DNA from: Deltaproteobacteria bacterium
GTDB taxonomy: Bacteria; Desulfobacterota; GWC2-55-46
Length of the DNA stretch: 39,276 nt
Direction: 5' to 3'
NCBI GenBank assembly: GCA_016212705.1
Contig: JACREU010000009.1
Span: 1-39,276 of the forward strand
Position numbers and translations under genes: made by a program. Under the pieces are notes generated by a model that was not told where the DNA came from, did not search any database, and saw nothing but the letters and a program-made list of their open reading frames with translations. This document shows, in pieces, positions 3,923 to 13,423 of the stretch (positions are counted from its first letter, which is position 1; every line of letters starts with the position of its first letter).

Positions 3923-3991
3923 TTAAGGCTACCTCTAAAAATTAGATATTTTTTAAGGTCAGAAAAATGCGCTTTTTGGAAGCAGCCTTAA
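3923..3991 (-). ncRNA. Candidate structured 3' element after cysN (three-way junction)
   Basis: The minus-strand RNA opens with UUAAGGCU, which includes the cysN stop codon UAA, and closes with its perfect complement AGCCUUAA (8 bp). Inside lie two hairpins: AAAAA-GCGCA-UUUUU, and ACCUU/GAGGU extended across one A-A mismatch by AAAAA/UUUUU plus a U-A pair. The three helices make a compact three-way junction with helix 3 abutting the closing stem. It could be a 3' stabiliser, an unusual terminator or a small repeat element with terminal inverted repeats. No known RNA family was recognised; this was folded by eye. Confidence 0.35.
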
Positions 3992-5208
3992 ATGATTATC
4001 CCTCCGGCCACAGGTCGCCCGTCATGCTCGAGTACGAACCTGCCGAGCTCCGGGATATCCGAGAACCTCTCTATCGCCACTTCCGCGCTCAAGGTTATGT
4101 CGACCTCGGCCACCTCGGCCTGGCTGATGCTCGCCGCGTCGGTCACGGCCTCTTTTTCTGAGGCCGGGTCGAACCTCCTCCTTATCCTCTCAATCTTGCC
4201 CCTCGTCTCCTGTGTGGCGCACTTGAAGGTGAGCGGGATCCCGAGCTTATAGTCCTTGTCTATCATCCAGAAGATGTTCGCGTGGACGGTTCTCGTGATC
4301 GTAGGGGAGAGGGTCTCAGAGAGTATGTCCCCCCTTTTTACCTCCGCGCCTTCGAGGATGAGCCCGACGCACTCGCCTGTTTGCGCCTCTTTAAGGTCAG
4401 GCTCCAGATACTTCTTTATGCTCGCGACCTTCGCCTTAGTCTTTCCGGGGAGGACCCAGAGCCCCTGGCCTTCTATCAATCTGCCGGCCTCTATGCGTCC
4501 GGCTACTATCTTCTGCCCGCTTATCTCATAGACGTCCTGTACAGGGAACCTCGCGCCCTTCTCCTCTATCTTCATCTCCTCGAAGTTGTCGAGCGCCTGA
4601 AGGACCGTCGGACCCTTGTACCAGGAGAGCTTGTCGCTCGCCGCGGCTACGTTCTCTCCTTCCATGGCGGAAATAGGGATGATGTACGAGGGCGTTATCC
4701 CGTACTTCATCGTTACCTCCTCTATCCGCTTTTTGAGGTCGAGGAAGGCGGCCTCGGAATACCCGGCGAGGTCCATCTTATTGACCGTCACAACGACCTG
4801 CTTTATGCCGAGGAGGCTCAGGATGTAGCAGTGGCGTAACGTCTGCTCCTGAATGCCCCTCGTTATCTCCACGAGGAGGATGGCGGCCTCTGCCTGCGAC
4901 GAGCCGCTTATCATGTTTTTCAAGAACTCCTTGTGCCCAGGGGCGTCGATTATCACGTACTTCCTTTTGGGTGTGGCGAAAAAGGTGTGGGCGATGTCGA
5001 TCGTTATGCCCCTCGTCCTCTCCTCCTCGAGGTTGTCCATCACGTAGGCGAACTCAAGCGGACGGCCAAGCTCCGCGCATACCCTTTTGACCTCTTCGAG
5101 CTTCTCGGGCGGCAGAGACCCGGAATCAAAGAAGAGCCTGCCTATGAGGGTAGACTTCCCGTGGTCGACCGAGCCGACGATGACTATATGCAATGATCTT
5201 TCTTCCAT
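3988..5208 (-). CDS. cysN: Sulfate adenylyltransferase GTPase subunit CysN
   Basis: The 406-aa large subunit of ATP sulfurylase couples GTP hydrolysis to adenylyl-sulfate (APS) formation by CysD. All GTPase motifs are present: GSVDHGKST (12-20), the switch-I region RTRGITID, DAPGH, NKMD and SAMEGEN. EF-Tu-like beta-barrel domains follow to the C-terminus. There is no fused CysC (APS kinase) domain, and the protein is shorter than the ~475-aa E. coli CysN. ATG 5208 is preceded by GGGGGAG. It lies nine bases after cysD and is the last gene of a seven-gene string. Neither APS kinase, APS reductase nor a sulfotransferase appears in the window, so the fate of APS is open: sulfur assimilation encoded elsewhere, or glycan/lipid sulfation. 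Confidence 0.93.
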   Translation of the reverse strand: MEERSLHIVIVGSVDHGKSTLIGRLFFDSGSLPPEKLEEVKRVCAELGRPLEFAYVMDNLEEERTRGITIDIAHTFFATPKRKYVIIDAPGHKEFLKNMISGSSQAEAAILLVEITRGIQEQTLRHCYILSLLGIKQVVVTVNKMDLAGYSEAAFLDLKKRIEEVTMKYGITPSYIIPISAMEGENVAAASDKLSWYKGPTVLQALDNFEEMKIEEKGARFPVQDVYEISGQKIVAGRIEAGRLIEGQGLWVLPGKTKAKVASIKKYLEPDLKEAQTGECVGLILEGAEVKRGDILSETLSPTITRTVHANIFWMIDKDYKLGIPLTFKCATQETRGKIERIRRRFDPASEKEAVTDAASISQAEVAEVDITLSAEVAIERFSDIPELGRFVLEHDGRPVAGGIII

Positions 5209-5217
5209 AACTCCCCC

Positions 5218-6021
5218 TTACATGTATCCTAAAGACCTTAGCTTCTGCATCGTATACGCGTCCTCCTTGTCCTGCGCCCTTCCGGCGCGCTCGGAGGTGT
5301 GCGTGGACTCAAGCTCGGCTATTATCTCGTCCACATTCGACGCGGTCGAGTCTATCGGACTACAGCACGGCGCGCACCCGATGGAGCGGTATCTCTTGCC
5401 GTTCTTGCTCACGTACAGCTCCGTCAGAGGGATATTCTCCTTCTTCATGTACTTCCAGATGTCGAGCTCGGTCATGTGGAGTATCGGGTGGACCCTGAAG
5501 TGGTTGTCCTCTGCGGCGGTGGACTTGTACTGGTCCCACAGCTCCGCCGGCTGGTTCTCGTAGTCCCACTTGAAGTTCTCGTCCCTCGGGGAGAAGACCC
5601 TCTCCTTCGCCCTTATCCCGTGTTCGTCGCGCCTTATGCCGAGCAGGAGCGCCTTGAAGCCGTTCTTCTCGATTATCTGCTTCAGGGCGTTGGTCTTCAG
5701 CTCGTTACAGCAGTCGAGCTTCGTCCCCTTGCCAGGCCCCATGCCCGCCTCTACCTGCCCTTCGTTCCTGCCGACGATGAGGTTTAAGCCCCACTTCTTC
5801 GCGTACTCGTCCCTGAACCTGTACATCTCGGGGAACTTGTAAGTCGTGTCGATGTGTATCACCGGGAAAGGGACCACCCCGAAGAAGGCCTTTCTGACGA
5901 GCCAGAGGAGGGTCGTAGAGTCCTTGCCCACGGACCAGAGCATGGCGATGTTCCGGAACCTGAAGTACGCCTCCCGTATGATGAATATCGATTTGTTCTC
6001 AAGGGCGGTAAGATGGTCCAT
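5218..6021 (-). CDS. cysD: Sulfate adenylyltransferase catalytic subunit CysD
   Basis: This 267-aa small subunit of ATP sulfurylase makes APS and pyrophosphate from ATP and sulfate. The PP-loop motif SVGKDS sits at residues 30-35, and the CysD-typical RRDEHGIRAKER and CSPIDSTA-type segments follow; length matches the family. The ORF track starts at 6048, but the family begins MDHLTxLE, and ATG 6021 has AAGGAG eight bases upstream, so that start is chosen. This leaves a 10-base gap after the phosphohydrolase gene instead of an overlap. It is followed nine bases later by cysN. Function as a CysDN complex is secure; the downstream pathway is not. Confidence 0.95.
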   Translation of the reverse strand: MDHLTALENKSIFIIREAYFRFRNIAMLWSVGKDSTTLLWLVRKAFFGVVPFPVIHIDTTYKFPEMYRFRDEYAKKWGLNLIVGRNEGQVEAGMGPGKGTKLDCCNELKTNALKQIIEKNGFKALLLGIRRDEHGIRAKERVFSPRDENFKWDYENQPAELWDQYKSTAAEDNHFRVHPILHMTELDIWKYMKKENIPLTELYVSKNGKRYRSIGCAPCCSPIDSTASNVDEIIAELESTHTSERAGRAQDKEDAYTMQKLRSLGYM

Positions 6022-6031
6022 GAGTCTCTCC

Positions 6032-7378
6032 TTAAATAAACCTCTCAAGTATGATGGACGCGAGGTTTTCTATGTGCAGTCGTCCAAGGGGCGCCGTACC
6101 GGAGGGCATGACGCAGTGCGCGTCATGCCTCGTGTGCATGCCCCTGAAGTGCGAGGTCCCGAAGGCCTGCGGCTTTTTTATATTGCCCTTTATATCGAAA
6201 CCGTCGTTGCCAACGGCTACGAGGTCCGGGGAGCGGCCGGATTCATTCCCGGAATATAACTCCGTCCCATCGTAGACCCTTTTTATTACGGCGTTCCCAT
6301 CGCTGTCCTTTAAATCGATGAGAATGGATTTTATCTCGCTTAAAACCGCCCCCCTGTCTCTTGCCGGAACCGCCCCGCCGGGGTATCTGCCCTCGTAATT
6401 CAGATAAATCCGACCGGGGTCCATGACAAAGGCCTTTGAGCCCGCTCCTACCTGTTCGAAGTACTCGCGTACGGGGTCGAGCGTAAGCAACCCCTTCTCG
6501 ACAAAGAGCCTGTTAAGGTAGACCTCTTTCCTTATCGGCGCGAAGCCGTGGTCCGACATAGTCATAAACAAGCCGCGGCCGTTGGTAGAGGCCATGAACC
6601 TCTCAAAAACCCTTCCGATTATATCATCCATCTTCGTGTAAAAAAAGACGAATCTCTCGTGGTATTTGTGGGTCTTGTCCCGCGCCGCGTCGAAGAAGAA
6701 GTGGTGTAGCCTGTCGGTCTCGGTGACGACGCCTATGAAGAGGTCCCAGCGTTCATTGTCCATGAAGTGCATGAAGGCCTCCGCCCTTTTTTGAAGCGCG
6801 ATCAGCGCTTCGTCGAAAAAGGCGTCCGGCTTATCTGAGGCGTTAGAGGCCTCGATATCCATAATATAGTTTATTGAGCGGAGGTACTCATAGGCGGATT
6901 CCGGATAGGTGCCTTTCCTGAGGTCCGGGCAGACGAACCCGGATGTAAGGACGCCGTTAAGGGCCGGGGCCGGAAAGGTCTCAGGCATGTTGATGACGAT
7001 AGAGCGAAGGGTATTCGGCACGCGACCTTTGAATTTGTCAGCAAGTGTTGAGGCCCTTGCACCCGATGTCCCGCCTATAATGTCCCATAACGCGGGGGCC
7101 TTTATGGAAGCGTAATTAGGGAACGCCAGCCTGTACGTGTTGGGGAGGAGCTCCATAAAGCCGTAGATGCCGTGCTCTCCCGGGTTGACGCCGGTCATGA
7201 ACGAGGCCCACGAGGTCGACGACACGTCCGGTATGGAGGCGTCCATCTGTATGAGGCTGTAGCCTCCGGAGAGGATATTCTTGAGGTTCGGCATGACCCC
7301 CTGCTCCGCGTACTCCGAAAGAAGCGTTTGCGGCGCGCCGTCTATGCCGAGGACAAAGACCTTTTTGGATAAATCCAT
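6032..7378 (-). CDS. Alkaline-phosphatase-superfamily phosphohydrolase/phosphodiesterase
   Basis: This 448-aa protein belongs to the type I phosphodiesterase/nucleotide pyrophosphatase branch of the alkaline phosphatase superfamily (COG3379-like). Metal and catalytic motifs are in place: GIDGA (Asp13), the nucleophile region SSTSWASFMTG (Thr55 or a neighbouring Ser), TETDRLHH, MSDHGF and a late MHTRHDAH. It lacks a signal peptide, so a cytoplasmic role is likely, hydrolysing a nucleotide, sugar-nucleotide or PAPS/APS-like phosphodiester; the substrate is inferred only from class. The in-frame TTG at 7384 is less likely than ATG 7378, which follows the upstream stop by two bases (TGACGATG) with AGGAG upstream. 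Its place between a molybdoenzyme and cysDN suggests a shared pathway. Confidence 0.85.
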   Translation of the reverse strand: MDLSKKVFVLGIDGAPQTLLSEYAEQGVMPNLKNILSGGYSLIQMDASIPDVSSTSWASFMTGVNPGEHGIYGFMELLPNTYRLAFPNYASIKAPALWDIIGGTSGARASTLADKFKGRVPNTLRSIVINMPETFPAPALNGVLTSGFVCPDLRKGTYPESAYEYLRSINYIMDIEASNASDKPDAFFDEALIALQKRAEAFMHFMDNERWDLFIGVVTETDRLHHFFFDAARDKTHKYHERFVFFYTKMDDIIGRVFERFMASTNGRGLFMTMSDHGFAPIRKEVYLNRLFVEKGLLTLDPVREYFEQVGAGSKAFVMDPGRIYLNYEGRYPGGAVPARDRGAVLSEIKSILIDLKDSDGNAVIKRVYDGTELYSGNESGRSPDLVAVGNDGFDIKGNIKKPQAFGTSHFRGMHTRHDAHCVMPSGTAPLGRLHIENLASIILERFI

Positions 7379-7380
7379 CG

Positions 7381-9495
7381 TCAACTCTTCTCCTTTTCCA
7401 CCTTGCAGAGCAAGCCCCGGAGCTGATAGGAGCCGAACCCGGGGTCGTACGGCGGTTTGTTGTTAGTAAGCACATTGGCGTTGGACTCGAATACGCCGAA
7501 CTCGGGGCCGGCCTTTTCCGGGAACCACCACCCGTGCTCGACACTCACTACGCGCGGGTGTATGTCGTCAGTAACGCGCGCCCTCATCCTTATTGCGCCG
7601 CGCGGCGACGATACTTTGACCCAGTCGCCGTTTGATATGCCGAGAGAGCTGGCGACTATGGTGTGCATCTCAGCTTCTGGGTCGGGTTTAAGTTCGCGGA
7701 GCGACTTAACCTGCCTGTGTTCGCTGTGGAAGAACTCAAGACGCCTCGCACCTGTTATCAATATGTACGGGAACTCTTCGGCAAGGACCGGGGCGGACGC
7801 CGGGCTCTCAGGAGGCTCCTTGAACGTCGGCAGGCCGTCGTATCCCATCCGCTCAAGAGTCTTGCAGAAGAGCTCTACCTTCCTCGAAGGCGTCCTGAAG
7901 CCGGACTTCTCGAACCTCCTGTACTCGTGCTTCGGGTGGGCGCAGACCGTCTTTACAAGGTCTGCGTATTTTACGCCTAAAGGCTCCAGCTGATAGTCCA
8001 TGACCTCGTCAAGCCCATCGCCCGCGCCGGGGAGCTCAAGCTTTTTTGCGAGCTCGTCCATTATCCACTCGTCCTGCCTGCACTCGCCGGTCTGCGTTAT
8101 CGCGGACTGCGCCATGACCATGTTCTCAACGACCAGAGGATAGCCGATTACCTGTTTGGTCTCTGTCCAGAAAGCGGCTGGGAGGACATAGTCGGCGATA
8201 GCCGCGGTCGGCGTCATGAAGAGGTCCGTTACGACAAGGAGGTCGAGGGCTTTTAGACTCTCATAAACCTCTTTAGAATTCGCGACTGTGGCAAGCGGGT
8301 TGTTGCCGAATATGAGGAGCGCCCTTACCCTGTACGGGTCGCCTGTCCTCATGGCCTTAAAGAGCGCGGGTATGTGGGCCGAGGGCATGAAGGCCCGCCA
8401 GCCTCCTAAAAGCTTGAACTCGTCTGACCCGAGCCGCTTCTTCCCCATCCCCTCGGGGAGCTTGTCTTTTAAGGTAGGATAGCTCCTTATGACGTTCATC
8501 CCGAGTATGTCGCCGCCCGGGACGTCGATATTCCCGGTTATGGCGCGGAGCAACGCCACCGCCCTTACGGTCTGGAGCGAATTGAAGTTTTGCTCCAACC
8601 CCAATCCCCACTCAAGTATCGCGGGCTTGTTCGTCGCGTATGCGCGCGCCGCTTCGCTTATAGAGGCGGCAGGGATGGTCGTAATCGGCTCTGCCCACGC
8701 GGGCGTAAAGGGCTCGACGTGTTTCTTTAATTCCTCGAAGCCGACGGTCCACTTCTCGACGAACTCCTTGTCATGGAGCCCTTCGTTAATGATTGTGTTT
8801 ATCATGGCGAGCGCGAGCGCCGCGTCCGTGCCGGGGCGAATCGCGAGCCACTGGCCGCACCTCTTCGCCGTCTCGGTCCTCCGGGGGTCGATCGCAATCG
8901 ATACACAGCCCTTGTCGAGCGCCCTCTTGACAGAGGGCGCGAGCTCTCCGTCGGGGCCGGTTATAAGCGGGTTGTGCGCCCAGAAGAGTATGCACTTCGG
9001 CGCGACCTCTCCGTAATAATCGCCGACTACGAAGCCGCCGTATGTGAGGTTGCTTACGGTTATCCTCGGTATGAAGCACTGCGCGAGCCCCGGCTCGTAC
9101 CAGTTCGGCGTGCCGAGCTGGTTCGCGAACCTGACTACATGCATGTAGTGGTGCCTGCCGGTCCCCTGGCCGAGCGCGACGGATTCCGGCCCCGTCTCAT
9201 TTCTAATCGCGCCGACCTTTGCTGAGATCTCCGAGAGCGCTTCGTCCCACGATATCCTCTCCCACTTAAGAGAGCCCCTCTCGCCCTTTCTACGAAGCGG
9301 GTATTTGAGCCTCTCCGGGTGGTTCGCGATTTCAGGCGAGAAGACCCCCTTGGGGCACATCCAGCCCTGGTTCATCGGAGACGCCGGGTCGCCCTTAACT
9401 TTCACGACCTTGCCGTCCTTCACATGGACGAGCACTCCGCAGCCGCCGTGGCAGACCCTGCATACGCTCTTTATGATAGATACGCCGTCGTTCAT
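7381..9495 (-). CDS. Molybdopterin (bis-MGD) oxidoreductase, stand-alone catalytic subunit
   Basis: This 704-aa protein is a DMSO-reductase-family molybdenum or tungsten enzyme. The N-terminal [4Fe-4S] motif is complete (Cys12, Cys15, Cys19, Cys47; CRVCHGGCG...MCPKG). A Cys at residue 140 in AQCFIPR is at the usual metal-ligand position (the Sec/Cys140 region of formate dehydrogenase H). Further MGD-binding stretches (FWAHNPL, AIDPRRTETA) and a C-terminal MopB domain (GDWVKVSSPRGAIRMRA) follow. No Tat signal is present, so it is cytoplasmic. No iron-sulfur or membrane partner subunit is encoded nearby. It resembles the broad formate dehydrogenase/acetylene hydratase-type group rather than one named enzyme. 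It sits two bases from both neighbours in the operon, an unusual location for such an enzyme. Confidence 0.88.
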   Translation of the reverse strand: MNDGVSIIKSVCRVCHGGCGVLVHVKDGKVVKVKGDPASPMNQGWMCPKGVFSPEIANHPERLKYPLRRKGERGSLKWERISWDEALSEISAKVGAIRNETGPESVALGQGTGRHHYMHVVRFANQLGTPNWYEPGLAQCFIPRITVSNLTYGGFVVGDYYGEVAPKCILFWAHNPLITGPDGELAPSVKRALDKGCVSIAIDPRRTETAKRCGQWLAIRPGTDAALALAMINTIINEGLHDKEFVEKWTVGFEELKKHVEPFTPAWAEPITTIPAASISEAARAYATNKPAILEWGLGLEQNFNSLQTVRAVALLRAITGNIDVPGGDILGMNVIRSYPTLKDKLPEGMGKKRLGSDEFKLLGGWRAFMPSAHIPALFKAMRTGDPYRVRALLIFGNNPLATVANSKEVYESLKALDLLVVTDLFMTPTAAIADYVLPAAFWTETKQVIGYPLVVENMVMAQSAITQTGECRQDEWIMDELAKKLELPGAGDGLDEVMDYQLEPLGVKYADLVKTVCAHPKHEYRRFEKSGFRTPSRKVELFCKTLERMGYDGLPTFKEPPESPASAPVLAEEFPYILITGARRLEFFHSEHRQVKSLRELKPDPEAEMHTIVASSLGISNGDWVKVSSPRGAIRMRARVTDDIHPRVVSVEHGWWFPEKAGPEFGVFESNANVLTNNKPPYDPGFGSYQLRGLLCKVEKEKS

Positions 9496-9497
9496 AG

Positions 9498-10466
9498 TTA
9501 TCTTTTAATAGTCCCCCAGAGCGCTCCTGTGCCGATAGACACGGCGCGGAGAAACAACAGCGCCGGGGCAAATGGCGCTACAAGCGGGTCCCTGAAAAGC
9601 GCAATCTTGAGGAACGGGAGGGTAGTCAGAAAAAAGAGGGCCGCAACGGCCAGGAACAAAATCCCGCCCCAGGGCCTGATAAGCAAGGCGACGGGGAGCG
9701 AGAGCGCCGCAATCAGGGAAAGGAGGGTCTGGAATTTAAGCGTCTGCGGCGTGTAGGTGTCCTTGAGCATCTTGTCCGGAAATTTTTTATAGACGACCAT
9801 CCGCCAGTAGCCCCGCCAGAACTTTATCCTCGCGTACCTCTTTATCGAGGCAGGGTGGTTAAGGTGGCTCACAACGGCGTTGGGGTTGAATACCATCTTG
9901 AAGCCCTTGGCCGACATCCTGTATGAGAGCTCGGTGTCCTCGTTGTTGGCCGCAGGAAAGCTCGTGTCGAACCCGCCCATCTTGTCGAAGATATCCTTCC
10001 TGAAACCGGCGGAGTAGGTGTCTATCATGTCGATGGAGGCGGCCTTCCTCAACATCTCGAACCTCTCCTCGAACTCTATCTGGCAGAACCTCGCGACTAT
10101 CTCCTTTTGTCCAGTCCTGTACGCGCCCTTGACCGCTACGACGTCCTTATCATCAAAGGGCCTCGCCATCTCCCTTATCCAGTTCTTCTCAGGGACGCAG
10201 TCGGCGTCGGTAAAGAGTATTATCCCGCCTGTGGCCTCCTCTACACCCTTATTCCGGGCGGTAGCCGGCCCCTTGTTGGTCTGCCAGAGGTATTTTACCC
10301 CATGCCCTTTTATTATTTCGGCGGTAGAGTCCCTGGAGCCGTCGTCGACGACTATCACTTCAACAAGGCGCTTCGGATAGTCCTGTCCGGCGAGCGCGGA
10401 CAGGCACCTCCCGATGGTATTCTCCGAATTGTAGGCTGGGACTATTACGGAGACGCGGGGGAGCAT
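9498..10466 (-). CDS. Family 2 glycosyltransferase with C-terminal membrane helices
   Basis: This 322-aa protein has a GT-A fold N-terminal domain (RVSVIVPAYNSE; nucleotide-binding VVDDGSRDST; metal-binding TDADC) over roughly residues 1-230. Two or three hydrophobic helices span about 245-315, anchoring it to the inner membrane. The segment SHLNHPASIKRYARIKFWRGYWR is typical of membrane-anchored GT2 enzymes. It transfers an activated sugar to an unknown lipid or glycan acceptor. ATG 10466 follows the upstream stop by two bases, and the downstream molybdoenzyme begins two bases after its own stop. It is the only glycosyltransferase inside the CysDN operon and so is the main link between that unit and surface glycans. 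Confidence 0.88.
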   Translation of the reverse strand: MLPRVSVIVPAYNSENTIGRCLSALAGQDYPKRLVEVIVVDDGSRDSTAEIIKGHGVKYLWQTNKGPATARNKGVEEATGGIILFTDADCVPEKNWIREMARPFDDKDVVAVKGAYRTGQKEIVARFCQIEFEERFEMLRKAASIDMIDTYSAGFRKDIFDKMGGFDTSFPAANNEDTELSYRMSAKGFKMVFNPNAVVSHLNHPASIKRYARIKFWRGYWRMVVYKKFPDKMLKDTYTPQTLKFQTLLSLIAALSLPVALLIRPWGGILFLAVAALFFLTTLPFLKIALFRDPLVAPFAPALLFLRAVSIGTGALWGTIKR

Positions 10467-10468
10467 TT

Positions 10469-11935
10469 TTACGCGCTCGCCTTCTTTATGTCCGAACCCT
10501 TGAGGAGGTACTTGAAGAAAGTCCTCGCGGCCTTGACCGTCCTCTTTATATCGCTCGGCGACGTAATGAGCTGTTTGAGCTTATACAGGATGTAGCCGGG
10601 CCTCAGATAGAATTCCCTCCGGGCGTCGTCGCAGAACCTTACGAGGTCCTCGGCAGAGAGGTCCTCGGTCCTTATGACCGTATTGTGGAGCCCCTCCGGG
10701 GTTATCCAGCGCGAGAAGTCGGTGGACCGGATGAGCCCCTTCTGGCTGTACCAGTCGTATGCCTCTGTGCCGGGGTAGACCATCACCGGGTAGAACTGGA
10801 CGGTATCAGGGCATAAATCCTTGGCGAGATTAAGGGTCTCCTGCAAGGTCTCCTTCGTCTCTCCGGGGAGCCCGGCCATGAAACAGCCGTGGATAAGGAG
10901 CCCCGCCCTCTTGGCGTCACGCATGAAGGCCTTCATCTCATCGGGCTTCGTCTTCTTCTTCATGCTGTCGAGTATCTTCTGGCTGCCGCTCTCGAACCCG
11001 ACGCAGAGCGAACGGCACCCGGCTTCCTTAATCGCCTTCATCGATTCATAATCTATGCCTATGCGAGAGTTGGCGGTCCAGGTGATCCTGACCCCCCTCT
11101 TTTTGATAAGCTCAGAGAGCGCCTTCAGCCTCTTTTTGTCCACAGTCAGGGTGTCGTCCTCGAAGAAGATCGACTTGGCGTGGGGGAAGTTCTTTATGAT
11201 GTATTCCATCTCGTCTACGACGTTTTCCACGGACCTGCTTCTAAAGCCCCTGCCCATGAGCGTCTGCGGGTAGACGCAGAATGTGCACGGGAACGGGCAT
11301 CCCCTCGAAGTCGTTATAGTCACCATGGGAAAAAGCGCGTTGGGGTTGAAGTAGTTCTCTATCCTCAAAAACCTCTTATAGACCTTTGAGACGAACGGCA
11401 GTTCGTCGAGGTTCTCGATAAACGGCCGCCTCTCGTTATGCGCGATGTTGCCGCCGTCCTTCCAGCAGATGCCCTTTACAGAGCCGAGCGGCCCGTTCTT
11501 TGAAAGCGTATCGGCGAGGTCGAGGATGGTGAAGTCGTATTCGAACCTCGCTACCGCGTCAAGCCTCGCATCCATCTTCATGACGTCGTCCGGGAGGGCC
11601 GAGACGTGCGTGCCGACGGCGATTATGAACGCGCCGGGCATGAGGTCTTTAAGCCTCCCGGCCATGTCGATGTCGTTATTTATGGACGGGGTCGACGTGT
11701 CCATGACGATGAGACCTGGGCCGAAGGCAAGGGCGCGGTTCTCGACGTCCTGTATGGTGAGCCCGTCAGCAGGGGCGTCGATGAAGTCTATATCGTGCCC
11801 CTTTTCCATCACGACCGAGGCGGCGGAGGCGAGCCAGAGCGGAAAGTACAGCGTGCCGCTCTTCGTGACCGCGGGCGACCTCTGGGGCCTGGAGAATTTT
11901 TTCAGGAACGGGGGGTTCAAAAACAATATCTTCAT
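10469..11935 (-). CDS. B12-binding-type radical SAM protein
   Basis: This 488-aa protein has an N-terminal Rossmann-like domain as in cobalamin-binding radical SAM enzymes (KILFLNPPF, residues 1-130). A radical SAM core follows with CxxxCxxC at Cys213, Cys217 and Cys220 (RGCPFPCTFC). A classical DxHxxG cobalamin motif is not obvious, so B12 use is by family resemblance only. Members catalyse difficult methylations or rearrangements, often on lipids, sugars or peptides; the reaction here is unknown. The ORF track start (12058) adds 41 residues overlapping the DUF362 gene; ATG 11935 overlaps that gene's TAA by one base (TAATG), indicating translational coupling. Confidence 0.87.
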   Translation of the reverse strand: MKILFLNPPFLKKFSRPQRSPAVTKSGTLYFPLWLASAASVVMEKGHDIDFIDAPADGLTIQDVENRALAFGPGLIVMDTSTPSINNDIDMAGRLKDLMPGAFIIAVGTHVSALPDDVMKMDARLDAVARFEYDFTILDLADTLSKNGPLGSVKGICWKDGGNIAHNERRPFIENLDELPFVSKVYKRFLRIENYFNPNALFPMVTITTSRGCPFPCTFCVYPQTLMGRGFRSRSVENVVDEMEYIIKNFPHAKSIFFEDDTLTVDKKRLKALSELIKKRGVRITWTANSRIGIDYESMKAIKEAGCRSLCVGFESGSQKILDSMKKKTKPDEMKAFMRDAKRAGLLIHGCFMAGLPGETKETLQETLNLAKDLCPDTVQFYPVMVYPGTEAYDWYSQKGLIRSTDFSRWITPEGLHNTVIRTEDLSAEDLVRFCDDARREFYLRPGYILYKLKQLITSPSDIKRTVKAARTFFKYLLKGSDIKKASA

Positions 11936-13176
11936 TATGCGATTTCCTTGGTTATCCTTTCGTATTGGCGTAGCTGTTCTGAGAGAAAGCCCATTGAGCC
12001 CTTGAAACCTATCGCCCCCGACGGGCAGACGAGGAAGCAGTACTGGCAACCGATGCACCCGTTGTCCTTAGCGGCGACGACATCGGGGAGCTTGAGCTTT
12101 ACCGGGCAATAGTCGGCGCACTTGGTGCACCCTTTGACGCACCTGGCCTTATCGAACGAAAAACCCTTGAACTCCATCTCGGTCTTTATGAAGTTGTCCT
12201 GCCTGAGACCCGTCTTGAAGAGGAGGTTCCCGAAAAACCGCGTGTTGCAGAGATGGCTGAAGACCTTCGTGTTCCTCACCGCGAGAAAATACTTCTGCCT
12301 CTTGGGGCTGTGGATAAAGGAGGCGAAGGCGTTAGCCACCGGCTCCTTGAACTTCCTTTTAACGCCGGACAGATCTATGGACGAGGCGAACCTCAGGTGG
12401 TCTTTTGTAAGGAGCCCGGCCGCTTCCGCGGCCTTCAGGGTCCGGACCTTCTTGTAGTCGAAGTCGGCCAGGCGCGCGCAGACGAGGTCAAGGAGATAGG
12501 GGTCCGTCCCGATGAGGACGACCCCGGTCCTTACCGGCGTGCCCCTTGTCGGCCCGAGCCCTTCCATGGAGATGAGGCCGTCGACTATGTGGAGGCCGGG
12601 CTTCACCCTCTTATTGATGTTCACGATATTTTTGGCGAGGTGGAGGTGGGTCTTCTTCTTGTTCTCCTGGCCGACGAGACAGCCCATGAGGTTTTTGAGG
12701 CACACGCTCATCCCGGCCTCGAAGTGGGTCTTCAGCTTAGGCATGTTTATGAGGAAGTCCGCCTCGACGCACTCCCTCGCGACACTCGCCTTTACGCCGT
12801 CCTCGAACCCTATTTCGACCTTCTTCGAGTAGTTGAGGTCTATTACCTTTACGCCGTAGAACTTCGCGAGCTGGTCAAAGGAGAGCCTCGATATCACGCT
12901 TATCCCGGACCTGTAAAAGCCGGAGTTCGTCCCCTCGGCTATCGATATATCCCCGTACCCGCAACCTTTGAGGAACTTTATAACGGCGGCGACGAGTCTT
13001 AAGTCCGTCGTATTGCCGGTAAGCGCGTTCATGTTGCTGTTCATGTTGGGCTTTATTACGATCTTCGCGGACATGTCGCCGGGCAGGAGGTCGGAGTACC
13101 TCTTCATGGCCTCCCCCACCTTCGCCTCTATTTCCGAGACCGAATACGCCTTTATTATATCAAGCCTGAACGCCAT
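11935..13176 (-). CDS. DUF362 protein with C-terminal ferredoxin domain
   Basis: This 413-aa protein has a DUF362 domain (KIVIKPNMN..., AEGTNSGF..., NMPKLKTH..., LKNLMGCLVG) over about residues 1-300. A 2[4Fe-4S] ferredoxin module lies at about 346-388: CVKGCTKCADYCP and CIGCQYCFLVCP. DUF362 proteins are common in anaerobes; their function is not established, and electron transfer is inferred from the clusters. ATG 13176 (MAFRLDII) has AAGGCAG just upstream, while ATG 13206 has no visible ribosome-binding site, so the shorter form is chosen. It is the first gene of the seven-gene unit, after a 247-base gap, and may supply electrons to the downstream radical SAM or molybdoenzyme. Confidence 0.85.
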   Translation of the reverse strand: MAFRLDIIKAYSVSEIEAKVGEAMKRYSDLLPGDMSAKIVIKPNMNSNMNALTGNTTDLRLVAAVIKFLKGCGYGDISIAEGTNSGFYRSGISVISRLSFDQLAKFYGVKVIDLNYSKKVEIGFEDGVKASVARECVEADFLINMPKLKTHFEAGMSVCLKNLMGCLVGQENKKKTHLHLAKNIVNINKRVKPGLHIVDGLISMEGLGPTRGTPVRTGVVLIGTDPYLLDLVCARLADFDYKKVRTLKAAEAAGLLTKDHLRFASSIDLSGVKRKFKEPVANAFASFIHSPKRQKYFLAVRNTKVFSHLCNTRFFGNLLFKTGLRQDNFIKTEMEFKGFSFDKARCVKGCTKCADYCPVKLKLPDVVAAKDNGCIGCQYCFLVCPSGAIGFKGSMGFLSEQLRQYERITKEIA

Positions 13177-13423
13177 ACCCTGCCTTTTTAGCGAGTTTGA
13201 ACCCATCTGTTACCGTTTGACGGGCCGGATATCGCGGACGGTCAACGGCACCGGGGCCGCGAAACGCTATCGACATACCGCTCGAAAAAGGCGGCAAGTC
13301 AATCCTCATATTTTAAGATATTTCAACGAAAAATGGTAGAGAAATTAAGCGGGTTTAAAGGCTGGGTTTTAATCCGTGGGGGCCCGGCCCCGGGCGAGGC
13401 GCAGTGCGCAAAAAAAGCCCTGA

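Follow-up and report, generated by a model that had tools for sequence, protein, structure and literature searches.

A conserved seven-gene operon joining sulfate activation genes to radical SAM, glycosyltransferase and metallopterin enzyme genes in a Deltaproteobacterial glycan region

Introduction

Sulfate activation is encoded near the modifiers of a surface or secreted product in the NodPQ-NodH and RaxPQ-RaxST systems. To our knowledge, biological sulfation proceeds via PAPS, and we know of no alkaline-phosphatase-superfamily enzyme that uses APS as sulfuryl donor. In the formation of the BHT cyclitol ether, HpnJ remodels a lipid-linked sugar (PMC12583986). Among the relatives of acetylene hydratase is metallopterin ergothioneine synthase (MES), an enzyme that forms a C-S bond (PMC9516567).

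Here we describe a seven-gene operon on contig C32 of Deltaproteobacteria bacterium GCA_016212705.1, a metagenome-assembled genome (MAG) of 1.98 Mb in 122 contigs with an estimated completeness of 85.7%. The whole contig was analyzed and is referred to as the window (39,276 nucleotides). The operon is similar to the Nod and Rax systems in placing sulfate activation near product-modifying genes. It differs from them in that Pfam and NCBIfam scans revealed neither an APS kinase domain nor a sulfotransferase gene in it, while a phosphodiesterase (PDE) of the alkaline phosphatase superfamily is encoded instead.

Results

Organization of the operon

The seven genes are located on the minus strand between positions 13176 and 3988 (Table 1), and their families were assigned by Pfam and NCBIfam scans. 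The intergenic gaps are -1, 2, 2, 2, 10, and 9 bases, values that rest on the start codons used by homologues; an alternative start of the DUF362 reading frame is possible at position 13206. Gene order and gaps given in a preliminary description of the window were exact to the base, and its gene names agree with the family scans. A gap of 217 bases precedes the unit and one of 146 bases follows it, and outside it the window consists of a glycosyltransferase, GDP-sugar and Wzt-type ABC export region. Scans for promoters and terminators gave site counts not above those of shuffled sequences. We infer that the seven genes are co-transcribed as one transcription unit.

Table 1. Genes of the operon, their positions in the window and the matches supporting each assignment.
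Product	Position	Strand	Evidence
DUF362 protein, C-terminal 2x[4Fe-4S] ferredoxin motif	11935..13176	-	PF04015, 153 bits, and Fer4 matches; CIGCQYCFLVC motif
B12-binding radical SAM protein, HpnJ-like	10469..11935	-	PF04055, PF02310; TIGR03471; CxxxCxxC at residue 213
Membrane GT2 glycosyltransferase	9498..10466	-	PF00535, 124 bits; three C-terminal hydrophobic segments, 243-306
Bis-MGD metallopterin enzyme, acetylene-hydratase clade, predicted cytoplasmic	7381..9495	-	PF04879, PF00384, PF01568; PDB 2e7z
Alkaline-phosphatase-superfamily phosphodiesterase (PDE), CysDN-linked clade	6032..7378	-	PF01663, 130 bits (type I phosphodiesterase)
CysD-type sulfate adenylyltransferase catalytic subunit, CC...CxxCC cysteines	5218..6021	-	PRK05253, 353 bits; alignments to 1zun and 2goy
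CysN-type GTPase, no fused APS kinase	3988..5208	-	CysN, about 320 bits; GSVDHGKS, DAPG, NKMD motifs

The operon is real and conserved and consists of two modules, and it is a variant assembled from known kinds of parts. Module A comprises the DUF362-ferredoxin, HpnJ-like B12 radical SAM, membrane GT2 and acetylene-hydratase-like metallopterin genes together with a GT9 gene, and module B is PDE-CysD-CysN. This two-module structure was missed in the preliminary description, as were the relationship to acetylene hydratase and the Fe-S-type cysteines of CysD.

Conservation of the gene order

To collect homologous loci, we used the metallopterin protein as query against GTDB genomes and then ran tblastn with all its neighbours. 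A search for the seven-gene order in relatives had been proposed in the preliminary description, and the order was indeed found to recur in Deltaproteobacteria MAGs, at 61-97% identity. It is complete at L004/L149, L061, L008, L013, and L074/L116, with an insert of about 3 kb interrupting L008, while contig ends truncate the partial copies L005, L007, and L030. Most loci with conserved order are from Deltaproteobacteria MAGs. L030, an 8.3-kb contig labelled Nitrospirota that carries the last four genes of the unit, is possibly misbinned or transferred. Among 395 genomes of the phylum drawn separately, both modules were present together only in the source genome (G000), in G359 of the same genus and in G119 of the same family, and the full order is thus shown in essentially one family-level lineage. 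Its conservation is beyond chance, yet not phylogenetically wide. As the full order is found essentially in one family plus the partial L030, the conservation in part reflects shared descent.

At L061 (12832-19189), L069 (9728-16441), and L074 (15501-22107) the unit is followed by a conserved second neighbourhood (c15, c18, an epimerase and a radical SAM gene), which the window lacks.

Module A and its surface-polymer context

Module A was found in several phyla with surface-polymer genes adjacent. The DUF362-radical SAM-GT2 segment recurs in Nitrospirota, Desulfobulbus and others, either next to the metallopterin gene or at a distance from it; a GT9 gene usually precedes it and a lipid-A-acyltransferase-like gene often does. 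DUF362 orthologues adjoin the radical SAM gene at L005, L007, L008, L013, L018, L020, L022, L061, L069, and L074, while Marichromatium has the radical SAM, GT2 and metallopterin genes only. Module A often occurs without module B, which is therefore not essential to it.

The radical SAM protein has the B12-binding (PF02310) and radical SAM (PF04055) domains of HpnJ. Like the HpnI-HpnK-HpnJ system, the operon combines a GT2 with an HpnJ-like radical SAM protein that putatively acts on a lipid-linked sugar. Unlike in that system, its radical SAM protein scored 413.8 bits with the HpnJ model TIGR03471, below the equivalog cut-off of 577.6, and is linked to GT9 and acyltransferase genes. Neither HpnK nor any other hopanoid gene was recognised in the window.

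Radical SAM orthologues were present in 9 of the 395 genomes and metallopterin orthologues likewise in 9, with 8 genomes containing both (identity of at least 57% for both proteins). The hypergeometric probability of this co-occurrence was 6e-15, and 4e-7 at the family level, both uncorrected for phylogeny. The two genes were found on separate contigs in G118, G295, and G189 and 20-25 kb apart in G254 and G368; being unlinked in these five genomes, their co-occurrence does not result from linkage only. In G254 the metallopterin gene is located between AMP-ligase and alcohol dehydrogenase genes and SLBB/Wzz/Wzx/Wzy genes, and 25 kb away lies a run of B12-radical-SAM genes with GT9, DUF362, radical SAM and GT2. 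This region is one of surface-polymer chemistry. The co-occurrence points to uncharacterised surface-lipid chemistry in several phyla.

Radical SAM homologues from five genomes showed in-frame TAG and TGA codons, which were considered as candidates for pyrrolysine or selenocysteine and turned out to be normal terminal stops. The source genome carries a second HpnJ-like radical SAM gene of 50% identity (L170, contig C76, 9679-11115) in a cluster with another radical SAM gene, a GT9 fragment and a GT2 gene, without metallopterin or CysDN genes. The Marichromatium locus with the three core genes (L035, 7502-12136) belongs to Marichromatium gracile, a cultured purple sulfur bacterium and hence a tractable host. 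In Planctomycete and anammox MAGs (L009, L011, L012, L016, and L075) the metallopterin gene, at 75% identity, sometimes follows a GT2 gene and adjoins six convergent genes that form a conserved block.

The metallopterin enzyme

The best solved relative of the metallopterin enzyme is acetylene hydratase, a tungsten enzyme (2e7z; 380 bits, E 1.6e-112). As in acetylene hydratase and MES, there are bis-MGD and [4Fe-4S] domains and a Cys metal ligand, with LAQCFIPR aligning to the ligand region of 2e7z, and a cytoplasmic location is predicted. The residue that immediately follows the second cluster Cys, the catalytic Asp in acetylene hydratase, is however a His in 16 of 16 core homologues, that of the window included. 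The enzyme should not be named acetylene hydratase. It differs from MES in that its 704 amino acids comprise the bis-MGD domains only, without a fused C-terminal cysteine desulfurase. Since MES forms a C-S bond, sulfur transfer is possible for the metallopterin fold, which we take as a lead and not as a test. A literature search for acetylene hydratase together with DUF362 gave nothing direct.

Module B and the phosphodiesterase

PDE-CysD-CysN was found in four other families in which module A does not accompany it (G242; G341; G258/G192/G374/G299; and G266), often in exopolysaccharide (EPS) clusters. In G039, G075, and G108 the PDE gene lies downstream of CysN, with EPS genes and an UpxY antiterminator gene nearby, in G039 also with a chain-length protein, while the module of G258 is accompanied by DltB- and AlgX-like acyltransferase genes. 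A PstSCAB-like transporter precedes the module in G266 and G192. Such genes are located directly upstream of it at L119 (10125-15013) and L120 (2814 onwards), and the transporter's substrate could be sulfate or phosphate. PDE-CysD-CysN is thus a conserved module in glycan and EPS contexts.

The CysDN-linked PDEs form one group apart from three PF01663 paralogues (support 100/100, the outgroups being long branches). The positions of the nucleophile Ser and the metal-ligand Asp and His are kept in all CysDN-linked homologues aligned. An apparent break in the PDE gene of G258 was an assembly gap of Ns. AlphaFold models made from seven-sequence alignments were poor, with pLDDT of 50 for PDE and 55 for CysD.

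CysD and CysN

Both subunits fall below the canonical models, CysD with 255 against a cut-off of 396.6 (TIGR02039) and CysN just short with 319.6 against 336.1 (TIGR02034). As in canonical CysDN (1zun), the CysD-type subunit carries a PP-loop, SVGKDS (SxGKDS), and is encoded next to a CysN GTPase, as expected of a CysDN ATP sulfurylase. Unlike canonical CysD, it lacks the insert of about 35 residues in the alignment to 1zun, carries CC...CxxCC and is linked to PDE and not to CysH or CysC.

The alignment to the [4Fe-4S] APS reductase CysH (2goy) showed the four cluster cysteines of that enzyme at the same positions in CysD (DCC...GCAPCC), and a [4Fe-4S] cluster is predicted. In contrast to CysH, CysD retains the SxGKDS PP-loop, has a CysN partner and ends in ...TMQKLRSLGYM, without the catalytic cysteine of the ECGLH type; it is therefore unlikely to reduce APS. 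CC and CxxC were invariant in all CysD relatives inspected. The PDE-linked CysDs form one clade (99/96), all with the extra cysteine of CxxCC, which is common to L126 and L128, while the CysH-linked CysDs have CxxC[T/N] and belong to another part of the tree. We considered the Fe-S motif as the mark of a new sulfur-transfer reaction and downgraded this idea: CysDs adjacent to CysH share the cysteines, and the motif is therefore not a marker of a new reaction.

Sulfate assimilation elsewhere in the genomes

The preliminary description stated that no APS kinase, APS reductase, PAPS reductase or sulfotransferase is visible. This holds for the window but not for the source genome, where contig C87 encodes a sulfate-type permease, a true CysH (CC/CxxC/ECGLH, within KKTECGLHK), CysQ and the beginning of Sat. 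Two CysC genes are found on contigs other than the window, one of them at the edge of contig C47. The apparent lack of APS consumers is thus an effect of the window. Sulfotransfer_3, the one sulfotransferase family searched, was absent from the source genome and from the complete close relative G359, and present in G119, G242, and G341. In its rhamnose-type glycan cluster, C39 of the source genome carries an APS kinase (CysC) gene with methyltransferase and glycosyltransferase genes (L152, 8725-9282), which suggests a separate PAPS or sugar chemistry there.

Separate Sat-CysH(-CysC) loci were found in G000, G359, G119, G242, and G341. In G359, Sat-CysC is one 585-aa frame near CysH, and CysDN is therefore not needed for assimilation. 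A genome-wide lack of APS consumers was found among carriers of module B, since the MAGs G258 (98% complete) and G266 (93%) had no Sat, CysC, CysH above cut-off, AprB or Sulfotransfer_3. In these two genomes PDE is the sole conserved partner of the predicted APS producer; G192 resembles them, but has an unassigned PF01507 match.

Discussion

As the gene order recurs and a separate assimilation pathway exists in the cell, the destination of the activated sulfate is probably the cell surface. Our best reading, to which we assign a probability of roughly 45%, is that sulfate is activated here by a dedicated, non-assimilatory system for the benefit of a surface glycolipid or glycan modified by the radical SAM enzyme. 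Computation established the gene content and gaps, the conserved order and modularity, the presence of separate assimilation genes, the cysteine motif, the glycan context and the co-occurrence; we infer every chemical step, as well as which molecule accepts the sulfuryl group and what PDE and the metallopterin enzyme do. The membrane GT2, with the GT9 and lipid-A-acyltransferase-like enzymes usually encoded next door, would transfer a sugar to a lipid carrier. DUF362-ferredoxin would donate electrons to the HpnJ-like B12 radical SAM protein, which could rearrange or alkylate the lipid-linked sugar, and the metallopterin enzyme might perform a further hydration-, hydroxylation- or sulfur-transfer-type step. 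CysD and CysN would convert sulfate to APS for the glycan and not for cysteine synthesis, and PDE may handle APS or its product. The interpretation in the preliminary description is partly supported, in that its putative sulfur-containing or radically modified surface sugar or lipid fits the gene context. Counting against our reading, the PstSCAB-like transporter before module B in G266 and G192 is also compatible with plain oxyanion uptake, module A can dispense with module B, and the conserved order partly stems from shared descent.

More specifically, our bet is that the sulfuryl group of APS is passed on to the glycan by PDE, bypassing PAPS. PDE-CysD-CysN would then be a PAPS-independent sulfation module, in which Fe-S-type CysDN makes APS and a surface glycan receives the sulfuryl group directly from it through PDE; in this operon the module would be coupled to a B12-radical-SAM/tungsto- or molybdopterin pathway that yields a new glycolipid. 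We regard this version as unlikely, and a literature search for an alkaline-phosphatase-superfamily enzyme using APS as sulfuryl donor gave no lead. The idea is potentially new, and the direct APS route is made testable by a conserved sulfate-activation module in genomes where no APS kinase, APS reductase or PAPS sulfotransferase was recognised.

Ordinary PAPS sulfation is a rather unlikely alternative, in which CysDN enlarges the APS pool, PAPS is made by a CysC encoded elsewhere and used by an unrecognised sulfotransferase to sulfate the glycan, and PDE is a phosphatase with no part in the process. The two CysC of the source genome, one of them inside the rhamnose-type glycan cluster, make such a route possible, and both its CysQ and the Sulfotransfer_3 genes of G119, G242, and G341 speak for it. 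However, the source genome and G359 lack this sulfotransferase family, the carriers G258 and G266 have no CysC, and the Sat-CysC fusion of G359 already supplies APS and PAPS. It also appears quite improbable that APS-derived sulfur is incorporated into a C-S bond, by an MES-like metallopterin enzyme or by an Fe-S CysD that transfers sulfur as a PP-loop enzyme. The grouping of the metallopterin enzyme with acetylene hydratase, whose relatives include a proven C-S-former (PMC9516567), and the CysD cysteines favor it, whereas these cysteines also occur in CysDs adjoining CysH in assimilation loci, the desulfurase domain of MES is missing and module A is usually without CysDN. The simpler view in the preliminary description, that assimilation genes were placed here by chance, could draw on more distant relatives, in which CysDs of this class adjoin CysH and ABC-transporter genes. 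It is very improbable, being contradicted by the separate assimilation loci, the conserved gene order, the separate clade of PDE-linked CysDs and the occurrence of PDE-CysD-CysN as its own module in glycan and EPS contexts.

The Fe-S-type CysD is an overlooked sequence feature, and through its CC...CxxC motif it may connect ATP sulfurylases with [4Fe-4S] APS reductases. Our search of open-access papers found no report of a CysD with this motif, and this counts as weak evidence of novelty. A CysD with the canonical insert (L150 in G311, 9837-10739) also has CC...CxxC, and the Fe-S-type cysteines may therefore be ancestral to CysD and have been lost in the well-studied forms.
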